A DNA stretch of 64,000 bases from Microbacterium cremeum (GTDB taxonomy: Bacteria; Actinomycetota; Actinomycetes; Actinomycetales; Microbacteriaceae): positions 2,170,001-2,234,000 of the forward strand of contig NZ_CP063812.1 in NCBI RefSeq assembly GCF_015277855.1, written 5' to 3'. Numbering within the stretch: the stretch's first letter is position 1; every line of letters starts with the position of its first letter. The translations under genes were made by a program, and so were the position numbers. Below are positions 15,825-26,404 of this stretch, piece after piece. The notes below the pieces were generated by a model. The model was not told the DNA's origin. It worked only from the letters and a program-made list of their open reading frames with translations, and made no database searches.

Positions 15825-18800
15825 TCAGCCGAGGCACTGGGGCCCGAGCAGGCCCTTGAGCTCTCCGTAGAGGTCGGGCGTGATCCGCACCGTGTGCGGC
15901 ACCTCGAACACCTTCGCGACGGTGCCGCTGTGCAGCTTCACGGTCACCTCGGTGTCGCCCTTGTGACGCTGCAGCACCTGCAGCAGCTCGCCCACGACAC
16001 CCTCGCTCGCACGCCGCTCGGGCATGAGCAGCACGAGGCTCGAGGCATCGTCGAGCGCGCCGAGATCGGGACTGAACGCGGACTGCGCGTGCAGGTTCAT
16101 CCCGTCATCGCGTCGCGACACCCGGCCTCTCACCACGAGGATCGAGTCGGCCTGCAGCATCGGCGAGAACTCGGTGTAGGTCTTGCCCATGAACATCACC
16201 GTGATCTCTCCGTCGAAGTCCTCGACGGTGATCATGCCGTACGGATTTCCGCTCTGCTTCGCGACGCGATGCTGCACGCTCGTCACCAGCCCGGCGATGG
16301 TGACCTGCTCGCCGTCCTGGACGTCCTCGCTCGCGAGCAGGTCGTGGATGCTCGTCGAGGCGTGCTTGGCGAGCTGGATCTCCAATCCCGCGAGCGGGTG
16401 GTCCGACACGTACAGGCCGAGCATCTCGCGCTCGAACGCGAGCTTGTCCTTCTTGGTCCACTCCGGACGCGGCGGGACCTTCGGGGGCGCGACCTCCTCC
16501 GCGGCGTCGTAGAGGCTGTCGAAGTCGAAGCCGATGGCACCCTGTGCCTCATTGCGCTTCCGGTCGACGGCCGCCTCGGTGGCATCCTCGTGGATCTCCA
16601 GCAGCGCACGCCGCGTGTCGCCCATCGAGTCGAACGCGCCGGCCTTGATCAGCGACTCGACGGTGCGCTTGTTCGCGACGTGGATCGGCACCTTGTTCAG
16701 GAAGTCGTGGAACGACGAGAACTTCTCGTCGTGGCGGGACGCGACGATCCCGTCGACGACGTTCGCACCGACGTTGCGGACCGCGCCGAGCCCGAACCGG
16801 ATGTCGTCTCCGACGGCGGCGAAGTACCGGATCGACTCACTGACATCGGGCGGCAGGACCTTGATGCCCATGCGGCGACACTCGTTGAGGTACACCGCCA
16901 TCTTGTCCTTCGAGTCGCCGACGCTGGTGAGCAGCGCCGCCATGTACTCGGCCGGGTAGTGGGCCTTGAGGTACGCCGTCCAGTACGACACGAGGCCGTA
17001 CGCGGCCGAGTGCGCTTTGTTGAACGCGTAGTCGGAGAACGGCAGCAGGATGTCCCAGAGCGCCTTGATCGCGTCGTCGCCGTAGCCGCGCTCCTTCATG
17101 CCGCCGGAGAAGCCCTCGTACTGCTTGTCGAGCTCGGACTTCTTCTTCTTTCCCATCGCGCGACGGAGGATGTCGGCCTGCCCGAGCGAGAAGCCCGCGA
17201 CCTTCTGCGCGATCGCCATGACCTGCTCTTGATAGATGATCAGGCCGTAGCTGATGTCGAGGATCTCTCGGAGCGGCTCTTCGAGCTCTGGATGGATCGG
17301 CGTGACGGGCTGCTGACCGTTCTTGCGCAGCGCGTAGTTGATGTGCGAGTTGGCACCCATGGGTCCCGGGCGATACAGCGCGATCACGGCCGACACGTCT
17401 TCGAAGTTGTCGGGCTTCATCAACCGGAGGAGCGATCGCATCGGACCGCCGTCGAGCTGGAACACGCCGAGGGTGTCTCCCCGCGTGAGCAGCTCGTAGG
17501 CGGCACGGTCGTCGAGGGCGAGGTGCTCGAGATCGAGTTCTTCGCCCCGGTTCATCCGGATGTTGTCGAGGGCGTCCGAGATGATCGTGAGGTTGCGCAG
17601 CCCGAGGAAGTCCATCTTGATCAGACCGAGCGCTTCGCACGACGGATAGTCGAACTGCGTGACGATCTGGCCGTCCTGCTCGCGGCGCATGATCGGGATG
17701 ATGTCGAGCAGCGGCTCGCTCGACATGATGACGCCCGCGGCATGGACGCCCCACTGACGCTTGAGTCCCTCGAGCCCGAGGGCCCGGTCGAAGACCGTCT
17801 TCGCCTCGGCATCGGAGTCGATGAGGGCTCGGAACTCGCTCGCCTCTTTGAATCGAGGGTGCTGCGAGTCGTACATGCCGCTCAGCGGCATGTCCTTGCC
17901 CATGACGGCGGGCGGCATCGCCTTGGTCAGCCGCTCGCCCATGCTGAAGGGGAAGCCGAGCACGCGGCCGGCGTCCTTCAGCGCCTGCTTCGACTTGATG
18001 GTGCCGTACGTGACGATCTGCGCCACGCGCTCGGAACCGTACTTCTCGGTGACGTAGTCGATCACCTCGCCGCGGCGGCGGTCGTCGAAGTCCACATCGA
18101 AGTCGGGCATCGAGACGCGGTCGGGGTTGAGGAAGCGCTCGAAGATGAGGCCGTGCTCGAGCGGATCGAGGTCGGTGATGCGCATCGCGTACGCGACCAT
18201 CGACCCGGCACCGGATCCGCGACCCGGACCGACGCGGATGCCGTTGTCCTTCGCCCAGTTGATGAAGTCGGCGACGACCAGGAAGTAGCCGGGGAACCCC
18301 ATCTGCAGGATGATCCCGGTCTCGTACTCCGCCTGCTTGCGGACCTTGTCGGGGATGCCACCGGGGTACCGGTAGTGCAAGCCCGCCTCGACCTCCTTGA
18401 CGAGCCAGCTGTCTTCGGTCTCGCCGTCGGGGACGGGGAAGCGCGGCATGTAGTTGGCGCTGGTGTTGAACTCGACCTCGCAGCGCTCCGCGATGAGCAG
18501 CGTGTTGTCGCACGCCTCCGGGTGCTCCCGGAAGATCTGGCGCATCTCCTGCGCGGTCTTGATGTAGTAGCCGTCGCCGTCGAACTTGAAGCGGTTCGGG
18601 TCGTCGAGCGTCGAGCCCGACTGCACGCACAGCAGCGCGGCGTGCGCATCGGCCTCGTGCTGGTGCGTGTAGTGCGAGTCGTTGGTCGCGACGAGCGGGA
18701 TGTCGAGATCCTTCGCCAGCCGGAGGAGGTCGGTCATGACACGGCGCTCGATCGAGAGACCGTGGTCCATGATCTCGGCGAAGTAGTTCTCCTTGCCGAA

Positions 18801-19343
18801 GATGTCCTGGAACTCCGCGGCCGCCGCACGTGCGGCGTCGTACTGACCGAGGCGCAGACGCGTCTGCACCTCGCCGGAAGGGCAGCCCGTCGTCGCGATG
18901 AGCCCCTTGCCGTAGGTCTCGAGCAGCTCGCGATCCATCCGCGGCTTGAAGTAGTAGCCTTCGATGCTCGACAGCGAGCTGAGCCGGAAGAGGTTGTGCA
19001 TGCCTTCGGTGCTCTGGCTCCACATCGTCATGTGGGTGTACGCACCCGAGCCCGACACGTCATCGCTCTTCTGCTCGGGAGTGCCCCACGCCACGCGCGA
19101 CTTGTCGCTGCGATGCGTGCCGGGCGTGACGTACGCCTCGAGCCCGACGATCGGCTTCACGCCCGCAGCGTTCGCCGCGTTGTAGAACTCGAACGCCGCG
19201 AAGGTGTTGCCGTGGTCGGTGACCGCGATCGCCGGCATGCCGTACTCGGCGGCGGCCTGGGTCATCGCGCCGATCTTGGCGGCCCCGTCGAGCATCGAGT
19301 ACTCGCTGTGAACGTGCAGATGGACGAAGGAGTCGGATGCCAC
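15825..19343 (-). CDS. dnaE: DNA polymerase III alpha subunit
   Basis: Replicative polymerase catalytic subunit, 1172 residues. Domains in order: an N-terminal PHP domain (FVHLHVHSEYSMLDGA, about 5-20), the polymerase palm with catalytic aspartates in MPDFDVDFDDRR near residue 420, thumb and fingers, a helix-hairpin-helix region, and a C-terminal OB fold (EQVTIAGLVTSVQ). The length fits the main replicative DnaE1 type rather than the shorter or ImuC-like DnaE2. It starts with GTG, and a TAGACT -10 box sits exactly 6 bases upstream. The 1238-codon open frame on the opposite strand is a GC-driven shadow. Confidence 0.97.
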   Translation of the reverse strand: MASDSFVHLHVHSEYSMLDGAAKIGAMTQAAAEYGMPAIAVTDHGNTFAAFEFYNAANAAGVKPIVGLEAYVTPGTHRSDKSRVAWGTPEQKSDDVSGSGAYTHMTMWSQSTEGMHNLFRLSSLSSIEGYYFKPRMDRELLETYGKGLIATTGCPSGEVQTRLRLGQYDAARAAAAEFQDIFGKENYFAEIMDHGLSIERRVMTDLLRLAKDLDIPLVATNDSHYTHQHEADAHAALLCVQSGSTLDDPNRFKFDGDGYYIKTAQEMRQIFREHPEACDNTLLIAERCEVEFNTSANYMPRFPVPDGETEDSWLVKEVEAGLHYRYPGGIPDKVRKQAEYETGIILQMGFPGYFLVVADFINWAKDNGIRVGPGRGSGAGSMVAYAMRITDLDPLEHGLIFERFLNPDRVSMPDFDVDFDDRRRGEVIDYVTEKYGSERVAQIVTYGTIKSKQALKDAGRVLGFPFSMGERLTKAMPPAVMGKDMPLSGMYDSQHPRFKEASEFRALIDSDAEAKTVFDRALGLEGLKRQWGVHAAGVIMSSEPLLDIIPIMRREQDGQIVTQFDYPSCEALGLIKMDFLGLRNLTIISDALDNIRMNRGEELDLEHLALDDRAAYELLTRGDTLGVFQLDGGPMRSLLRLMKPDNFEDVSAVIALYRPGPMGANSHINYALRKNGQQPVTPIHPELEEPLREILDISYGLIIYQEQVMAIAQKVAGFSLGQADILRRAMGKKKKSELDKQYEGFSGGMKERGYGDDAIKALWDILLPFSDYAFNKAHSAAYGLVSYWTAYLKAHYPAEYMAALLTSVGDSKDKMAVYLNECRRMGIKVLPPDVSESIRYFAAVGDDIRFGLGAVRNVGANVVDGIVASRHDEKFSSFHDFLNKVPIHVANKRTVESLIKAGAFDSMGDTRRALLEIHEDATEAAVDRKRNEAQGAIGFDFDSLYDAAEEVAPPKVPPRPEWTKKDKLAFEREMLGLYVSDHPLAGLEIQLAKHASTSIHDLLASEDVQDGEQVTIAGLVTSVQHRVAKQSGNPYGMITVEDFDGEITVMFMGKTYTEFSPMLQADSILVVRGRVSRRDDGMNLHAQSAFSPDLGALDDASSLVLLMPERRASEGVVGELLQVLQRHKGDTEVTVKLHSGTVAKVFEVPHTVRITPDLYGELKGLLGPQCLG

Positions 19344-19349
19344 GGATCG

Positions 19350-19355
19350 AGTCTA
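19350..19355 (-). promoter_or_regulatory. -10 box of dnaE
   Basis: TAGACT on the minus strand, followed by a 6-base gap and the GTG start of dnaE. It indicates a leaderless transcript. Confidence 0.55.
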
Positions 19356-19379
19356 CGAAGAGGTCCCGACAAGCCTGCG

Positions 19380-19407
19380 GCCCGGGCGGCGGGTCGGCCG
19401 CCCGGGC
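19380..19407. repeat. GC-only hairpin in the dnaE/ABC divergent region
   Basis: Perfect 11-bp inverted repeat GCCCGGGCGGC around a 6-base spacer, between the divergent dnaE and iron-transport promoters. It contains an internal CCCGGGCGGC direct repeat. Function unknown. Confidence 0.4.
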
Positions 19408-19476
19408 GGCGGAAACGGCTCACCTTCGAGTTGAACGTCATGGTGGCGCCCGGGCAGGTCCGGCTCGTGGGGGCCG

Positions 19477-19495
19477 TTAGCATAGCCTTACCTCC
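19477..19495 (+). promoter_or_regulatory. DtxR/IdeR-like iron box over the ABC operon -10
   Basis: TTAGCATAGCCTTACCTCC matches 14 of 19 positions of the DtxR/IdeR consensus TWAGGTTAGSCTAACCTWA. The TAGCCT inside it (19483-19488) is a good -10 box, so a bound iron-loaded repressor would block transcription of the transporter genes. Its partner box, at 25859-25877, matches 16 of 19. Confidence 0.7.
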
Positions 19496-19520
19496 CTAAT
19501 TCGATCGTGAAGGTTCCGCC

Positions 19521-20549
19521 ATGCCCAGACGCCCCCGTCTCGTCGTCGCCGCCGTCCTGGCCACCGGGGCGCTCGCCACCGGCTGCGCCGCCTCGCCTGA
19601 CGCGGAGGCGCCTGCCGATCCCGACGCGCTCGTCATCTACAACGCACAGCACGAGCAGCTGACGGAAGAGTGGGCGGAGGCGTTCACGGCAGAGACCGGG
19701 ATCGAGGTCGTGCTGCGTCACGGCGGCGACAGCGAACTGGCCAACCAGCTCGTCCAGGAGGGCGAGGCATCCAAGGCCGACGTGTTCCTCACCGAGAACT
19801 CGCCCGCGATGTCGCTCGTGGAAGAGGCGGGCCTCTTCGCGGACGTCGACGCGGCCACCCTCGAGCGTGTGCCGGCCGAGCGGCGCCCGGCATCCGGCGC
19901 CTGGACCGGGATCGCGGCGCGGTCGACCGTGCTGGTCTACAACCCCGACCTGGTGTCGGAGGACGAGCTGCCGGCATCCCTCATCGACCTCGCCTCCCCC
20001 GAGTACCGGGGCCTGTGGGGTGCGGCGCCCGGCGGAGCCGACTTCCAGGCGATCGTCAGCGCCGTCGTCGCGACGGAGGGCGAGGAAGGTGCCCGCGAAT
20101 GGCTCGAGGGAATGGCCGAGAACGCGACGGTGTACCGCAACAACATCGTGACGATGAAGGCGGTCAATGCGGGCGAGGTGCCCATGGGCATCATTTATCA
20201 CTACTACTGGTACCGCGACCAGGACGGCACCCGCGAGAACAGCGGCAACACCGCGCTGAAGTACTTCGGGAGCGCCGACCCGGGTGCGTTCGTGAGCGTC
20301 TCGGGCGGCGGCGTCCTCGCGAACGCCCAGCACCCGGAGGAGGCCCAGGAGTTCCTGGCGTTCCTGGTCGGCGACGAGGGTCAGCGCATCCTCGGCGAGG
20401 GCTACAGCTTCGAGTACCCGGTGGCAGCAGGCGTGCCCGCCAATCCGTCGCTTCCGGCGCTCGACTCGCTCGAGGCTCCCGTCATCGATCCGTCCACGCT
20501 CAACGGGCCCACCGTGATCGCGCTGATGACCGAGGCCGGGCTGCTCTGA
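19521..20549 (+). CDS. ferric iron ABC transporter substrate-binding lipoprotein
   Basis: Extracellular solute-binding protein of the FbpA/IdiA/FutA type, which captures ferric iron and presents it to the permease. 342 residues with a lipoprotein signal ending LATGC (C22). The iron-binding tyrosine cluster is visible at about 228-231 (YYWY in GIIYHYYWYRDQDG), and LVIYNAQHEQLTEEWAEAF opens the mature domain. It has AAGG about 9 bases before the ATG and a DtxR-like box 26 bases upstream. It is the first gene of a three-gene operon with a two-domain permease and an ATPase. Ferric iron as substrate is inferred from the tyrosine pattern and the iron box. Confidence 0.9.
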   Translation: MPRRPRLVVAAVLATGALATGCAASPDAEAPADPDALVIYNAQHEQLTEEWAEAFTAETGIEVVLRHGGDSELANQLVQEGEASKADVFLTENSPAMSLVEEAGLFADVDAATLERVPAERRPASGAWTGIAARSTVLVYNPDLVSEDELPASLIDLASPEYRGLWGAAPGGADFQAIVSAVVATEGEEGAREWLEGMAENATVYRNNIVTMKAVNAGEVPMGIIYHYYWYRDQDGTRENSGNTALKYFGSADPGAFVSVSGGGVLANAQHPEEAQEFLAFLVGDEGQRILGEGYSFEYPVAAGVPANPSLPALDSLEAPVIDPSTLNGPTVIALMTEAGLL

Positions 20550-22132
20550 CCGTCGTCACATCGGCGAAGGCTTCGTCCGCCGCCGCTCCACCGCCGCACG
20601 CGCGCCCGCCGGCGCGCGGCCGTCGTGCACCCGTCGGCCTGCTCGTGATCGTCGCGGTGCTGGTGGCGGGATGCCTCGTCCCGGTCTGGTACGTCGTCCA
20701 GTCGGCGATCGCGCTCGGCCCCGACGAGCTCGCCAGGATCCTGATGCGGCCCTATATCGCGCGCCTGCTCACCGACACCGTGCTGCTCGTCGTCATCAGC
20801 CTGCCGTGCACGATCGTCCTCGCCGTCGGAGGGGCCTGGCTCGTCGAACGGACCGCCCTTCCGGCCCGTCGTGTGCTCGCCGTGGCGCTGGCCGCGCCGC
20901 TGGCGATCCCCGCGTTCGTGGCCAGCTACGGGTGGGCGAGCGCGATGCCCGGCATCAGCGGCCTGTGGGGCGGCGTCCTCGTCGCGACGCTGGCGTACTA
21001 CCCGCTGGTGTATCTGCCGGTGCTCGCGGCGCTGCGCGGACTCGACCCGGCGCTCGAAGAGACAGCCCGCTCGCTCGGCATGGGCTCGTGGGGCGTCTTC
21101 TTCCGCGTGGTGCTGCCGCAGCTGCGGCTGGCCCTCCTGGGCGGCGCACTCGTCGTCGGTCTTCACCTGCTCGCCGAGTACGGCGCCTTCGCGTTCCTCC
21201 GCTTCGACACGTTCACCACGGCGATCGTCGTCGCGTACCAGTCGACCTTCGCCGGCCCGAACGCCGCCGGTCTCGGCATCGTGCTCACGACGCTGACCGT
21301 CGGACTGCTCGCCGCCGAGGCCGCCGCTCGGGGCCGCCTCCCGTACGCGCGCGTCGGCGGCGGAAGCGCTCACCCGCCCACGCGGCTGAGCCTCGGCCGG
21401 TGGATGCCGGTCGCGCTCGGCGCGGTGCTGGCCGTGCTGACAGCCGGCGTCGTCGTGCCGCTGACGACCGTGGTGCGCTGGCTGACCGCCGCACAGCCTG
21501 CTGACTACGCGTCGCTCGGTCCGGCGGCCGCGCAGACGATCGCGCTCGCCGTCGCCGGCGCGCTGTGCGCCATCGCGGTGGCCCTGCCGATCGCGTGGCT
21601 CTCGGTGCGATACCCGGGCCGCGGGGCGCGCATCCTGGAGGGCGCGGCCTACCTCGCCGGCAGCCTTCCCGCCATCATCGTGGCGCTGGCCCTCGTGGTC
21701 GTCTCGCTGCGCCTCGTGCCGGCGACCTATCAGACCGTCGTGACGGTGACCGCGGCGTACGTGATCCTGTTCCTGCCGCGGGCGCTCGTGACCATCCGCG
21801 CCGGCCTCGCCCAGGTCCCCGAATCGCTCGAGCAGGCCGCCCGCTCGCTCGGCCGCTCCCCCGCGGTCGCCCGGCTCGTCATCACGATGCCGCTCCTGCT
21901 TCCCTCGCTGGCCGCGGCCGCCGCGCTCGTAGGTCTCGGCGCCGCGAACGAGCTGACGGCGACCCTGCTCCTCGCGCCGACCGGCACCCGCACGATCGCG
22001 ACGGAGTTCTGGTCCGCGGCATCCTCTCTCGACTACTCCGCCGCCGCGCCGTCCGCACTCGCGCTCGTGCTGCTGTCGGCACCGGCGGTCGCGCTCATGT
22101 TCGCCCACGCCACCCGACGGAGCCCCCGATGA
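20546..22132 (+). CDS. ferric iron ABC transporter permease (fused, two-domain)
   Basis: FbpB-type permease with two fused membrane domains, about twelve helices. Both ABC permease EAA loops are visible (EETARSLGMGSWGVFFRVVLP near residue 170 and EQAARSLGRSPAVARLVITMP near 430). The start is uncertain. There is no ATG, GTG or TTG between the upstream stop and GTG 20645, which would trim the N-terminal arm but keep the first helix. CTG at 20546 overlaps the upstream TGA by 4 bases (CTGA) with GAGG 10 bases before it, the pattern of a coupled start; I prefer it, giving 528 residues. The 3' end overlaps the ATPase start by 4 bases. Confidence 0.85.
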   Translation: MTVVTSAKASSAAAPPPHARPPARGRRAPVGLLVIVAVLVAGCLVPVWYVVQSAIALGPDELARILMRPYIARLLTDTVLLVVISLPCTIVLAVGGAWLVERTALPARRVLAVALAAPLAIPAFVASYGWASAMPGISGLWGGVLVATLAYYPLVYLPVLAALRGLDPALEETARSLGMGSWGVFFRVVLPQLRLALLGGALVVGLHLLAEYGAFAFLRFDTFTTAIVVAYQSTFAGPNAAGLGIVLTTLTVGLLAAEAAARGRLPYARVGGGSAHPPTRLSLGRWMPVALGAVLAVLTAGVVVPLTTVVRWLTAAQPADYASLGPAAAQTIALAVAGALCAIAVALPIAWLSVRYPGRGARILEGAAYLAGSLPAIIVALALVVVSLRLVPATYQTVVTVTAAYVILFLPRALVTIRAGLAQVPESLEQAARSLGRSPAVARLVITMPLLLPSLAAAAALVGLGAANELTATLLLAPTGTRTIATEFWSAASSLDYSAAAPSALALVLLSAPAVALMFAHATRRSPR

Positions 22133-23181
22133 CCCTGCGGATGACCGGCGTGTCGAAGTCCTTCGGCACCGAGACGGTGCTCTCGGACGTCGACGTCGAG
22201 CTGCCCACCGGCCACCGGCTCGCGCTGGTCGGCGAGTCGGGCAGCGGCAAGAGCACGCTGCTGCGACTGCTGATGGGGTTCGAGCGGCCGGATCGAGGGA
22301 CGATCGAACTCGACGGGCGCCTGCTGTCAGGACCGGGAACGCACGTTCCGACCCATCGTCGCGGGCTCGGCTACGTCCCGCAGGACGGCGCGCTGTTCCC
22401 GCATCTGTCCGTCGCGCGCAACATCGCGTTCGGCCTGGCGCGCGGCACCCCAGCGCGCGGGCGCGTGCGCGAGCTGATGGAGCTGACCGCGCTCGCCCCG
22501 GCCCTGGCCGACCGCATGCCGCACGAGCTGTCGGGCGGCCAGCAGCAGCGGGTCGCGCTCGCCCGTGCGCTGGCGCCGCGGCCGCGCGTGATCCTGCTCG
22601 ACGAGCCGTTCAGCGCACTCGACACCGGCCTGCGCGCACACACCCGCGAATCCGTCGTCGAGATCCTCGAGGCGACGGGTGTCACCGCGGTGCTGGTCAC
22701 GCACGACCAGGAGGAGGCGTTGTCGTTCGGCGTCCAGGTCGGGGTGCTCGAGGGCCAGCGGCTCGTGCAGTCCGGTCCGCCCGCGGATGTCTTCGATGCG
22801 CCGGTGGACGCGGCCGTCGCCGCGTTCCTCGGCGACGTCGTGATCCTCGACGCGACGCGCACCGCAGCGGGAGCCGCGTGCGCTCTCGGCGTCCTGCCGG
22901 TCCGTCACGATCTCGCACCGGGAGACACCACGGTGCGCGCGATGGTGCGGCCCGCACAGATCACGATCACGCCGGCGGATGCCGGCAACGCCCGCGTCCT
23001 GCAGGTGCGGACGATCGGCGCCGGCGTCGATGTGCGGCTGGCGTTGGAGAGCGACGACTCCCGGACCGAGCTGGTCCATCGCGTGCCCGCCCATCAGGCG
23101 GCCCGCCTCGCCCCGGGCTCGCGGGCCGACGTCGCCGTCGACGGCGGCGTCGTGCTCTACCCCGCGGTGCGCGCCGACTGA
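22129..23181 (+). CDS. ferric iron ABC transporter ATP-binding protein
   Basis: FbpC-type ATPase that powers import, 350 residues. Walker A GESGSGKST (about 35-43), signature LSGGQQQRVALARAL, Walker B VILLDEPFSALD and the H-loop VLVTHDQEEAL are all present. A C-terminal TOBE-like regulatory domain follows (about 250-350). The ATG overlaps the permease stop (ATGA). Its last 25 bases overlap the 3' end of the convergent acyltransferase fusion gene, so the two coding regions share sequence on opposite strands. Third and last gene of the iron operon. Confidence 0.93.
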   Translation: MTLRMTGVSKSFGTETVLSDVDVELPTGHRLALVGESGSGKSTLLRLLMGFERPDRGTIELDGRLLSGPGTHVPTHRRGLGYVPQDGALFPHLSVARNIAFGLARGTPARGRVRELMELTALAPALADRMPHELSGGQQQRVALARALAPRPRVILLDEPFSALDTGLRAHTRESVVEILEATGVTAVLVTHDQEEALSFGVQVGVLEGQRLVQSGPPADVFDAPVDAAVAAFLGDVVILDATRTAAGAACALGVLPVRHDLAPGDTTVRAMVRPAQITITPADAGNARVLQVRTIGAGVDVRLALESDDSRTELVHRVPAHQAARLAPGSRADVAVDGGVVLYPAVRAD

Positions 23182-25817
23182 CGCCGCGCACGTGCCTGAG
23201 CCCGCGACCGCGAGAGCGCGTGGGTCGCGCTGCCGTACGCCTTCCACACGACGATGCCGACGACGAACGAGAGCAGCAGCCCGACCGCGGGCGCGGACTG
23301 CTCGAAGGGCGGGTAGACCTGCCAGTGGGTCAGGTACACGAACATCGACGACCCTGCCAGCACGCCCACGACGGGCGCGACGAACCGCGGCAGCGGGACG
23401 GCCGGAAGCCACAGCAGGATCAGCGTGCCCGCCAGAACGATCGCCTCGCGACCGAGATCGCCGAAGAAGCCGGGGATGGCGACAAGGGCGAGGGCGGCGA
23501 CGAGCAGCCGTTGCGCAGTCGTGCGGGCGCGGGCGATGGCCCAGCCGAGCGCGACCAGCCACACCACGACGACGGCGGAGTACTTCTCGAGACCGTCCGC
23601 CGTCACCCCGGCGACGAGCAGGCGCGCCCCCAGGGCGACGGCGAGCAGTGCGAGAGCGAAAGCGAACGGGGCGCGCCGTTCGACGCGATCCAGCGCCGGA
23701 AGTGCGAAGAGGCCCGCGAGCAGCAGCAGGGCATACAGTGCGGCCTCGAGGAACCAGAACTGCCACTGCGGCGTGAATGTGCCGTCGCCCGGGGTGAAGT
23801 TGTTGATCAGCAGGATCGTGGTGGGGTCGTACATCGCGGTGACCGCGGCGACCGCACCGATCCACACGACGGCCGGAACGGCGAGGTGGGCGGCGCTGCG
23901 CAGGAGCCGTCCGCTGCGGGCGGCGCCGCCACCGCCGGCGAGCTGGAAGCGCGCGAGGTTGTAGCCGGCCACGACCAGCAGCAGGTGTGCTCCGCCCTGC
24001 AGCGAGAACAGGTCGGCGTGGGTCCCGACGATCAGCACGATCGCGAGGGCGCGCAGCACGGCGGGGGTCTCCACGCGGAGCGGGCGCAGACGGGGGCGAC
24101 GAGGCCGGGATGCCGCGTCCGCCGTCACGGCGGGCGGCTGATCGATGGCGCTCGCGTCCTGCTCGTCCGCGGTCTCGGCCGTCTCGTGCCGCGCTGCGTC
24201 CGCGTGCGCCGCGGCCAGCTCGCGTGCCGTGAGCTCGGGCCAGTCGCGCGGCAGCCGCCCGAGCAGGGCTTCGAGCCGCAGCGAGGCCTCGACGTAGCTG
24301 AGCGAATCGCCGCCCATGCCGGCGAACGAGTCGTCCACACCGGCGTCGGGGCGGTCCAGCACCCCGGCGTACAGCGCGCGGATGGCCTCGGCATCGACCG
24401 CGCCCGCGACGGCGCCGCCGTACCGGGGCCCGGCGTCCACGGCACGGGCGTGGCGCACGAGGGCGGCGGTGTCGGGCTTGCCGCTCGCCGTCCGGGGGAA
24501 CACCGCCACGGCATAGGCCGACACCGCGTGCACCGGGATGCCGGCGAGGGCGGCCGCACGCGCGCGTGCCCGGCGTGCCAGCCGATCGGAGCGGGCGAAG
24601 ACGAGCAGGCGCTCGTCCACGCTCGCCGTGCGCACCTCGAGGTCTTCTTCGGCCAGGAGCTCCTGCATCCGGTCCAGGTCGATGCGGAGCCCGAAAACCT
24701 TGACGAACCGGTTCATGCGCCCGACGATCTGGTACAGCCCGTCGGGGCGTCGCCGCGCCACATCGCCCGTGCGCAACTCATCTGTCGTGCGGCCGAGGGC
24801 GAGATCCTCCGGGGCCTCGGCGTAGCCCATCATGACGTTGGGTCCGAGGTAGACGAGTTCGCCGGTTTCGGCACCGGGCTCGGCGTCGATGACGAATCGG
24901 CCCCCGGGGATCGGGCGGCCGATCGCCTCGGGTGCCGTGGCCGCGAGCTCGGGCGGGAGGAACGCCATGCGAGCCGTCGCCTCGGTCTGCCCGTACATCA
25001 CGAAGAACTCGAAGCCTCGCGCGCGTCCGAGCTCCGCGTACCGCCGCACGGCCTCGGGGGCGAGTCGACCCCCGGCCTGCGTCACGTAGCGCAGGGTCGG
25101 CAGGTCCCGCTCGGCGAAGCCGGCCGCGTCGAGCAGCTCGAACGTGTACGGCACCCCCGCGAAGCTGGTGACGCGGTGCCGGCGGGCCTGCTCCCAGAAG
25201 CCCTCGTCGGTCACCGACAGATCGGTGAGGGCGACCGCTGCACCGGCGAGCAGGTGACTGTTGATCACCGAGAGGCCGTAGCAGTAGTGCGGCGGGAGGG
25301 TCGTCGCCGCGCGATCCCGCGCATCGAGGCGGAGGTACTCCGCGATCGCCGCCGCGTTGCTGCGGATGTTCTCGGCCGAGAGGCGCACGAGCTTCGGGGA
25401 ACCTGTGGAGCCGGACGTGCTCGCCAGCAGCGCCAGTTCCGGGTGCAGATCGTGAGCCGTTCCCTCTCGCCTCTCGACGAGGGAGTAGCCGTCCTCGGCG
25501 CCGAGCCCGAGCACGTCGGGATCGAATCGCGCGATCAGCGACTCCCGATGACGTCGTGACGCGTCGTCGTCTCCCGGCGCGACCAGCAGCACCGGATGCC
25601 CCCCTCGGAGCGCTGCGAGATAGGTGACGAGCGGCTCGAGGTCGTTCGCCGCGCACGCCATCACGAGCCGGCGCACGGGCCCGAGCTGCTCAGCGCGCTC
25701 GTCGATCCGCCGTTCGAGGTCGGCATAGGTGACGACGCCATCGGGGGTGATCAGCGCGGCATCGTCGGGCGAGCCGCCGAGCAGGGAGAGACCGGGCTCG
25801 AGGTCGGTACGGGGCAT
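23157..25817 (-). CDS. fused adenylation-carrier-membrane acyltransferase protein
   Basis: 886 residues in three parts. First is an adenylation domain (about 1-470) with STSGSTGSPK, VMYGQTEAT, TGD, the GRMNRFVKVFGLRID hinge and PRTASGKPD with catalytic lysine K447. Next is a carrier domain with the phosphopantetheine serine S505 in GGDSL. Last is an acyltransferase-3-like membrane domain (about 560-870, roughly ten helices) opening RALAIVLIVGTH. It should activate a carboxylic acid, load it on its own carrier and transfer it at the membrane. At the position of the aspartate that binds the amino group in peptide synthetases the protein has leucine (YGLSV), so a non-amino-acid substrate is inferred. 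ATG 25817 has GGAG upstream; an ATG at 25847 is less likely. The product is unknown. Confidence 0.85.
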   Translation of the reverse strand: MPRTDLEPGLSLLGGSPDDAALITPDGVVTYADLERRIDERAEQLGPVRRLVMACAANDLEPLVTYLAALRGGHPVLLVAPGDDDASRRHRESLIARFDPDVLGLGAEDGYSLVERREGTAHDLHPELALLASTSGSTGSPKLVRLSAENIRSNAAAIAEYLRLDARDRAATTLPPHYCYGLSVINSHLLAGAAVALTDLSVTDEGFWEQARRHRVTSFAGVPYTFELLDAAGFAERDLPTLRYVTQAGGRLAPEAVRRYAELGRARGFEFFVMYGQTEATARMAFLPPELAATAPEAIGRPIPGGRFVIDAEPGAETGELVYLGPNVMMGYAEAPEDLALGRTTDELRTGDVARRRPDGLYQIVGRMNRFVKVFGLRIDLDRMQELLAEEDLEVRTASVDERLLVFARSDRLARRARARAAALAGIPVHAVSAYAVAVFPRTASGKPDTAALVRHARAVDAGPRYGGAVAGAVDAEAIRALYAGVLDRPDAGVDDSFAGMGGDSLSYVEASLRLEALLGRLPRDWPELTARELAAAHADAARHETAETADEQDASAIDQPPAVTADAASRPRRPRLRPLRVETPAVLRALAIVLIVGTHADLFSLQGGAHLLLVVAGYNLARFQLAGGGGAARSGRLLRSAAHLAVPAVVWIGAVAAVTAMYDPTTILLINNFTPGDGTFTPQWQFWFLEAALYALLLLAGLFALPALDRVERRAPFAFALALLAVALGARLLVAGVTADGLEKYSAVVVVWLVALGWAIARARTTAQRLLVAALALVAIPGFFGDLGREAIVLAGTLILLWLPAVPLPRFVAPVVGVLAGSSMFVYLTHWQVYPPFEQSAPAVGLLLSFVVGIVVWKAYGSATHALSRSRAQARARRQSARTAG

Positions 25818-25858
25818 GCAGGACTCCGGGCTGGATCGCGAGATCACACGGACGGGGA

Positions 25859-25877
25859 TGAGGTAAGCATAACCTTA
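25859..25877 (-). promoter_or_regulatory. DtxR/IdeR-like iron box over the acyltransferase gene -10
   Basis: Read on the plus strand, TGAGGTAAGCATAACCTTA matches 16 of 19 positions of TWAGGTTAGSCTAACCTWA. The minus-strand TATGCT (25866-25871) inside it is the likely -10 of the fusion gene. It faces the box at 19477, so the whole convergent unit is bracketed by iron boxes. Confidence 0.75.
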
Positions 25878-25954
25878 TTTCCCGCTCATCCCCGCGGCGG
25901 GTCCTCTGCTCACCTCGGGTGTTGCCGGATGCCGCGACGACGGTTCACGGAATC

Positions 25955-26404
25955 TCAGAAGTCCTCGTCGAGGGCGTATTGCTGCTGCCACGTGTGCGGG
26001 CGGTCGATGCCCAGTCCGTACAGATAGCGGATGAGCTGACCCTGGTGCTGCGTCTCGTGCTCGAGCAGGGCGAGCACGTAGCGCAGCGAGTCCTCGTCGG
26101 CCGCGTCGATGCCGGCGACCCACCCGTCGACGTCGGCGGCGGTCTGCACGAACGCGGAGCGGAGGGTCGCGGCATCCGTCGACCCGTCCCTGGCGACCGG
26201 ACTCGTGAAGCCCTGCCACTCCCCGGCGCGAGCCGCCTTCGGGAAGCTCTCGCGGGCGCCGAGCACGCACCACAGCTGGTGCCCGATCGTGTCGGACGGC
26301 AGGTCGCGCAAGTAGGAGCCGAGGTGCTCGGGCGGCATCGTGTCGAGCAAGTCGAGGTAGAGCGTGTTCGCCCGCTCGAGGCGTCGCTGCAGGAGGTGGT
26401 TCAC
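25955..26404 (-). CDS. DinB-like four-helix metalloprotein
   Basis: 149 residues, all alpha, of the DinB/YfiT-like superfamily. Metal-ligand histidines are visible in TIGHQLWCVLGARE (about 40-52) and in LLEHETQHQGQLIRY (about 115-129), the second being the strongest family mark. Members include mycothiol- and bacillithiol-dependent transferases and many proteins of unknown role; no substrate is assigned. It starts with GTG, and a TAGCGT -10 exactly 6 bases upstream overlaps the stop codon of the preceding GNAT gene, so it has its own leaderless-type promoter. Confidence 0.75.
   Translation of the reverse strand: MNHLLQRRLERANTLYLDLLDTMPPEHLGSYLRDLPSDTIGHQLWCVLGARESFPKAARAGEWQGFTSPVARDGSTDAATLRSAFVQTAADVDGWVAGIDAADEDSLRYVLALLEHETQHQGQLIRYLYGLGIDRPHTWQQQYALDEDF

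Follow-up and report, generated by a model that had tools for sequence, protein, structure and literature searches.

Members of the FbpA family, the binding proteins of FbpABC-type ferric importers, normally take free Fe(III). Enzymes that load an acid onto a carrier and hand it on are known from other settings: DltABCD and AlmEFG esterify teichoic acid and lipid A, respectively, with amino acids, DltB being an MBOAT acyltransferase, and in the petrobactin pathway AsbC-AsbD-AsbE activate one acid, hold it on a carrier and transfer it once, as separate soluble proteins alongside IucA/IucC synthetases. HGSNAT and GWT1 are acyltransferases whose glycan or lipid acceptors lie across the membrane. 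Here, we analyzed a 64,000-nucleotide stretch of Microbacterium cremeum (contig NZ_CP063812.1, positions 2,170,001 to 2,234,000; hereafter the window), part of a 3.98-Mb single-contig genome, in which a ferric importer operon converges with a gene for an adenylation-carrier-acyltransferase fusion. Judged from sequence, the ferric importer, the intact three-domain enzyme, the iron boxes and the linkage are all established features, and on balance we favor reading the locus as an accessory iron-acquisition cassette under DtxR/IdeR boxes, in which an FbpABC importer is joined by a one-protein acyl-transfer enzyme that would yield an Fe(III) ligand.

The importer operon (19521-23181, forward strand) encodes a substrate-binding protein (SBP), a permease and an ATP-binding cassette (ABC) ATPase, and runs toward the 886-residue fusion on the reverse strand (Table 1). 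The ATG of the ATPase gene overlaps the permease stop codon, and the ATPase and fusion genes share their last 25 bp on opposite strands; the permease frame is open from before 20549, its start codon being uncertain, and ends at 22132. The best solved relatives of the SBP were YfuA (1xvx, E 5e-117), 8k7n, SfuA (1xvy, 5e-112), HitA (3e-73) and FbpA (4e-53), and the Fe(III) ligands of hFbpA (His, Glu and a Tyr-Tyr pair) correspond to H44, E92, Y228 and Y229. This set (HEYY) was kept in 64/64 proteins of at least 50% identity among the best SBP matches of 120 loci; in a remoter class (<50% identity) both Tyr were kept in 14/14, with N, D, G or S replacing His and Q replacing Glu. A lipobox-like ATGC, read by eye, lies close to the N-terminus of the SBP. 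By its sequence, the importer is of the FbpABC type, with a binding protein that carries the ferric ligand set. The remoter N/D/G/S-Q-Y-Y class pairs with the same enzyme and, in loci L204-L210, stands divergent from it with a common iron box.

Table 1. Coordinates of the cassette and its parts within the window.
Feature	Position	Strand	Score or basis
DtxR/IdeR-like iron box 5' of importer operon	19477..19495	+	14/19
SBP gene, FbpA/YfuA/SfuA family, 342 aa	19521..20549	+	sequence family, ligand residues
Permease gene, two BPD_transp_1 halves in single chain	20549..22132	+	Pfam
Importer ABC ATPase gene	22129..23181	+	Pfam
Fusion gene, 886 aa from ATG: AMP-binding, PP-binding, Acyl_transf_3	23157..25817	-	Pfam
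Adenylation domain, residues 1-462	24432..25817	-	Pfam, alignment
Carrier (peptidyl carrier protein, PCP) domain, residues 474-555, phosphopantetheine serine S505 in GGDS	24153..24398	-	Pfam, alignment
Membrane acyltransferase (AT3) domain, residues 584-885	23163..24068	-	Pfam, alignment, structure matches
DtxR/IdeR-like iron box 5' of fusion gene	25859..25877	-	15/19
Whole cassette	19344..25954	.	absent from matching interval of several congeners

Boxes were scored against the 19-mer consensus TTAGGTTAGGCTAACCTAA, which three putative IdeR sites in the available part of PMC2991359 resemble. An earlier sequence-only reading of this DNA had given the importer box 14/19, a score that stands, and the fusion box 16/19, which became 15/19 on rescoring. 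These two are the sole sites of at least 13/19 within the window, and a mean of 0.35 sites at this level, with none of at least 14/19, was obtained from 20 Markov-1 sequences of the same length. The distance from box to start codon is 25 nt for the SBP and 41 nt for the fusion. The same reading had placed the boxes over the -10 of both promoters, which was not confirmed: a sigma-70 scan of 19340-19620 and 25750-26000 gave nothing promoter-like, a result that does not exclude an actinobacterial promoter. For repressors of the DtxR family (PF01325), the genome gave 7 matches, 3 of them above the cut-off (best E 7.6e-18 and 1.7e-16). On the strength of the boxes, both transcription units are putative members of a DtxR/IdeR regulon. 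Two strong Fe_dep_repress (DtxR-family) genes, at G000:C1:1162215 and 3645922, are candidates for the iron repressor. A perfect 10-nt inverted repeat (CGGGGATGAG / CTCATCCCCG) at 25853-25862 and 25885-25894 flanks the iron box of the fusion.

In relatives, one fixed consensus was searched from 300 bp upstream to 60 bp inside the gene at 104 non-duplicate loci with a readable fusion start (109 fusion loci less three whose fusion is cut off at its start, L062, L078 and L147, and two duplicates, L143 and L216). Unreadable starts at L025 (both genes) and L059 (SBP) set the convergent counts to n = 20 and the SBP count of SBP-first operons to n = 22. A box of at least 14/19 preceded the fusion in 20/20 and the SBP in 18/20 convergent loci, lay in the common interval of divergent loci in 12/12, and in SBP-first operons preceded the SBP in 19/22 and the fusion in 3/23. 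It was also present before 30/40 fusions without a linked SBP, meaning none within 9 kb of available DNA; some of these loci end early (e.g., L021, L080 and L095), and at L021 and L080 an ATPase match adjoins the fusion. A simple script predicted 1302 other gene starts at the loci searched, and none had a box of at least 13/19. These counts suggest that iron control of the fusion is more than a by-product of its link to the importer. As originally proposed, both units have iron boxes, in the window and in most relatives.

The pairing of the two units recurs across genomes. A class sample of 394 genomes, searched at E ≤ 1e-80, contained 66 with the fusion and 46 with a YfuA-like SBP: both occurred in 39, the fusion alone in 27, the SBP alone in 7 and neither in 321 (Fisher p 6e-29, kinship uncorrected). 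In 35 of the 39 co-occurring pairs, the two genes are no more than 12 kb apart: the SBP precedes the fusion on the same strand in 14 and follows it in 7, and the genes converge in 11 and diverge in 3. This adjacency in four gene orders bears out the functional coupling of fusion and importer that had been put forward; comparison of the same locus in relatives, set beforehand as a check on that claim, found the genes linked. Fifteen of the 27 fusion-only loci were inspected: 11 have another adjoining FbpA-type SBP (33-41% identity, tblastn E ≤ 7e-49 or better), with 7 of these divergent and a box in between, and 4 have no adjoining FbpA-type SBP, one lying close to a contig end. An FbpA-like SBP at E ≤ 1e-15 was found in 25/25 genomes searched (the 12 uninspected fusion-only class genomes, the 4 without an adjoining SBP, 4 with unlinked pairs and 5 from the family). 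A ferric-type SBP is accordingly found in 66/66 class fusion genomes (39 + 11 + 16) versus 10/41 fusion-free ones, the latter being class genomes with no fusion match at E ≤ 1e-80, picked by handle number (p 1.4e-18, kinship uncorrected). Four of the 16 (G490, G508, G614 and G672) are also adjacent by coordinates, bringing the linked fusions to 50/66 (35 + 11 + 4). In a family sample of 299 genomes, with both cut-offs at E ≤ 1e-60, the fusion was present in 12 and the SBP in 35, and all six genomes with an SBP identity of at least 68% have an adjoining fusion by coordinates. In a quick maximum-likelihood tree built from 109 fusion proteins, at least 21 changes are required to explain the five layouts (four gene orders plus 'no linked SBP seen'), against a possible minimum of 4, and the label 'no linked SBP' counted alone needs 15, so linkage was lost or gained, and gene order altered, many times.

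Several counts weigh against a tight coupling of importer and enzyme. Fourteen genomes of the family sample with an SBP at 57-64% identity have no fusion at the family cut-off, and in 11/11 of these loci that were inspected (L129-L139) a YfuA-like importer has a box of at least 14/19 before its SBP; in the class, 7/46 genomes with a close SBP have no fusion, and the importer thus also occurs alone. As far as coordinates show, 16/66 class fusions have no adjoining importer gene. Some fusions are box-less: a box of at least 14/19 was found in 1/8 fusion-first operons, the remaining seven scoring 12 or 13. The boxes that most fusions without a linked SBP in view carry on their own would fit a role in iron sparing or envelope remodeling, in which the fusion belongs to the iron-starvation response and changes a lipid or glycan with no direct part in uptake. 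We consider such a role unlikely, since adjacency to importers of two SBP classes in four orders, together with co-occurrence in every class fusion genome, is hard to account for by shared regulation alone.

Turning to the enzyme itself, all three Pfam domains are present in 46/46 aligned fusion relatives, and no condensation, cyclization or thioesterase domain is among its Pfam matches. In a structure model, the AT3 domain folds like HGSNAT and GWT1, the closest solved folds found; it is probably a membrane acyltransferase of this kind and, by resemblance of fold, may transfer the acyl group across the membrane, and the transfer at the membrane suggested in the sequence-only reading agrees with the model. 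H600 is conserved in 38/38 and E691 in 37/38 diverse members, H600 being also invariant in alignment A1. Searched alone against PDB sequences, the AT3 domain gave a single chance-level row (E 0.34); OafA/OatA are absent from the VIA structure lists for AT3, which proves nothing. A further 116 proteins match the AT3 domain alone and, by length and domain column, are apparently pieces of the same fusion. Against NCBIfam, the best 25 of 70 matches of the fusion all fall below the cut-offs, and residues 466-886 gave 0 matches at E ≤ 1; TIGR02353, which we take to be the model of an NRPS (nonribosomal peptide synthetase) terminal domain, is not among the latter, its presence in the library being unchecked. 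Extra domains were considered for a 1755-aa frame in Naasia (G068; L052) and rejected, the frame being unstopped from upstream with no extra domain by eye.

Neighboring genes were clustered over 92 loci, six others having been dropped (five other own-genome ligase loci and one duplicate). Clusters of open reading frames found in at least 14 loci all lie on the fusion or the importer, and other clusters reach at most 9 loci. Fold and neighborhood together bear on the fate of the acyl group. The fusion may be an all-in-one DltABCD that attaches an acidic or hydroxylated acid to a wall glycan or lipid when iron is scarce; the surface itself would then gather Fe(III) beside the SBP, with no diffusible siderophore. 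This surface version, which we hold tentatively but as a genuine contender, is consistent with far-side acylation by the fold relatives HGSNAT and GWT1, with one JGI name among the matches, truncated at this point, that includes 'surface polysaccharide O-acyltransferase-li', and with the finding of no exporter gene recurring beside the fusion; it is countered by the finding of no recurring glycan, lipid or wall gene there, rarer neighbors not being named singly, and by the residue at the Asp amine anchor of DltA/AlmE, which is not Asp here. PF01757, the AT3 family, also includes macrolide O-acyltransferases that act in the cytosol, and the fusion might likewise acylate a cytosolic small molecule to be exported by unlinked pumps. 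We regard this as quite improbable, given that the closest solved folds found are trans-bilayer acyltransferases and that no pump was found recurring beside the fusion. Beyond the 3' end of fusions without a linked SBP, small proteins of 78 and 94 aa are predicted (L144:11049-11285, reverse strand, and L038:12603-12887, forward strand), with similar membrane-like N-terminal words by eye.

The adenylation pocket was read at positions listed in the available part of PMC11253843, with residues mapped through the LgrA alignment and GrsA motifs. The residues noted, with GrsA numbering in brackets, are C179 (235), Y180 (236), S183 (239), T246 (299), A248 (301), M274 (322), A282 (330), R283 (331) and K447 (517), and G221 falls on 278. 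In the LgrA alignments, the anchor Asp stands opposite C179 (LgrA domain 1) or, two residues on, opposite G181 (domain 2), and because the two domains place it differently the mapping is not beyond doubt; C179 is kept in 37/38 and G181 in 38/38 diverse members, and neither is Asp. The amine is anchored by D197 in DltA and D247 in AlmE, according to the available part of PMC11253843, and the lack of this Asp in the fusion makes D-Ala or Gly unlikely as its acid; the same source describes McyG, which shows that recognition of amino acids does not strictly depend on the Asp. It also gives K330, R331 and S299 (opposite GrsA A301) as the key residues of VinN for 3-methylaspartate, and under our mapping R283 and T246 fall on 331 and 299. 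VinN and oxalate-CoA ligase, at 28%, have the highest identity among the 50 structural matches listed. Prediction of the acid from the pocket was tried and abandoned: an aryl acid (by eye against DhbE, Cys for Asn235) competed with a second carboxylate (VinN), and no acid is named.

Searches of the genome at E ≤ 0.001 returned 0 matches to the NRPS condensation domain (PF00668) and 0 to the IucA/IucC synthetase domain (PF04183), other chelator classes not being searched; the original remark that no full siderophore NRPS is present here therefore holds genome-wide, as judged by the condensation domain. Absence of both pathway classes is compatible with a diffusible chelator, in which the acid and its acceptor, both common metabolites, would be joined into a small siderophore (an ester or amide), released via AT3 and taken up by the importer. 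The excess of ferric-type SBPs in fusion genomes, the R283 and T246 positions and the VinN and oxalate-CoA ligase matches point the same way. We nevertheless find the diffusible chelator doubtful: no exporter, reductase or esterase was found recurring beside the fusion, the FbpA family normally takes the free ion, and the pocket reading is weak. Similarly doubtful, though possible, is a minimal siderophore-type route in which one polypeptide would make and release an iron ligand from a non-amino acid, with outward transfer by AT3 and import by FbpABC. Such a route would need no NRPS condensation, IucA/IucC or dedicated exporter, and would travel as a 6.4-kb cassette, spread across Actinomycetota.

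Within the genus, the cassette resembles an insertion between dnaE and a stretch of lspA, RluD-like, GNAT and DinB-like genes. Its flanks are dnaE (15825-19343, reverse strand) on one side and a small DinB-like gene (25955-26404, reverse strand; PF05163 E 0.004, below the family cut-off) on the other; the latter is patchy too, occurring in 2/19 genomes sampled from the genus, the source genome included. In 9/14 congeners, dnaE lies close to an RluD-like, GNAT or DinB-like gene (Pfam names) with no fusion between, and in the other 5/14 the flanks show no dnaE. None of the 11 same-genus genomes listed carries the fusion at E ≤ 1e-80, and searches at E ≤ 1e-20 for six flank genes of the window gave no match in 120 relatives' loci. 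The empty intervals in congeners and the absence of the flank genes from relatives' loci argue that the unit probably came here as a block, both boxes included.

Returning to the reading that we favor, an iron-acquisition cassette whose enzyme yields an Fe(III) ligand, its steps may be set out as follows. When iron is plentiful, a repressor acting at the boxes would shut both promoters, and under iron starvation both would open. The adenylation domain would activate a carboxylic acid with ATP, the fusion's own carrier domain would take it on phosphopantetheine at S505, and the AT3 domain would transfer the acyl group across the membrane to an acceptor outside. The acylated product, as a small chelator or a surface-fixed ligand, would then bind Fe(III) and deliver it to the SBP for import. 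The stronger parts of this scheme are the iron boxes and the coupling to ferric import; the weakest is that the product is an iron ligand. A chelator and a surface iron ligand are the leading candidates for that product, and the data do not separate the two. The fusion is present in 66 of the 394 class genomes, yet it has no above-cut-off match among the best 25 in NCBIfam. Should it produce an iron ligand, a means of iron acquisition in common soil actinobacteria has been overlooked, for want of the condensation and IucA/IucC domains that normally give such pathways away. Should it modify the envelope instead, surface acylation would be tied to ferric import, a link of which we know no example.

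A search of the open-access literature turned up no description of the fusion or of its pairing with an importer, and the pairing is not described in the available parts of PMC2991359, PMC5719810, PMC7438953, PMC11253843, PMC11284099, PMC12971057 and PMC3219685. In its available part, Corretto 2020 (PMC7438953) places Microbacterium 'type A/B' A-PCP-acyltransferase NRPS-like genes (A, adenylation) under siderophore clusters. Like the present fusion, they are single-module A-PCP genes with a terminal putative acyltransferase domain; unlike it, type A always adjoins aminopeptidase N, and that part of the source mentions no ferric importer partner or iron box. Type B may or may not include the present family.

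With FbpABC, YfuABC, SfuABC and HitABC, the importer shares the SBP family with the full HEYY set, the two-half permease and the ATPase; it differs in an SBP that is lipoprotein-like and in an operon linked to an adenylation-carrier-acyltransferase gene. NRPS siderophore synthetases have adenylation and carrier domains and iron boxes in common with the fusion, which differs from them in its lack of condensation, cyclization or thioesterase matches, in a genome without PF00668. The logic of DltABCD and AlmEFG, in which an adenylation enzyme, a carrier and a membrane transfer serve an envelope acceptor, is the same, but here it is found in a single chain with AT3, no Asp amine anchor, iron boxes and a ferric importer as partner; the fused acyltransferase is PF01757 rather than MBOAT as in DltB, a separate DltB elsewhere in the genome not having been sought. 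HGSNAT and GWT1 use acyl-CoA, whereas the donor of the fusion is presumably its own carrier. Petrobactin Asb likewise activates, carries and transfers a single acid once, but the fusion does so, by prediction, as one membrane protein with no IucA/IucC. The related known kind is a ferric importer accompanied by an NRPS-like enzyme, and the cassette would be categorically new only if its product proves to be an iron ligand made in this way.

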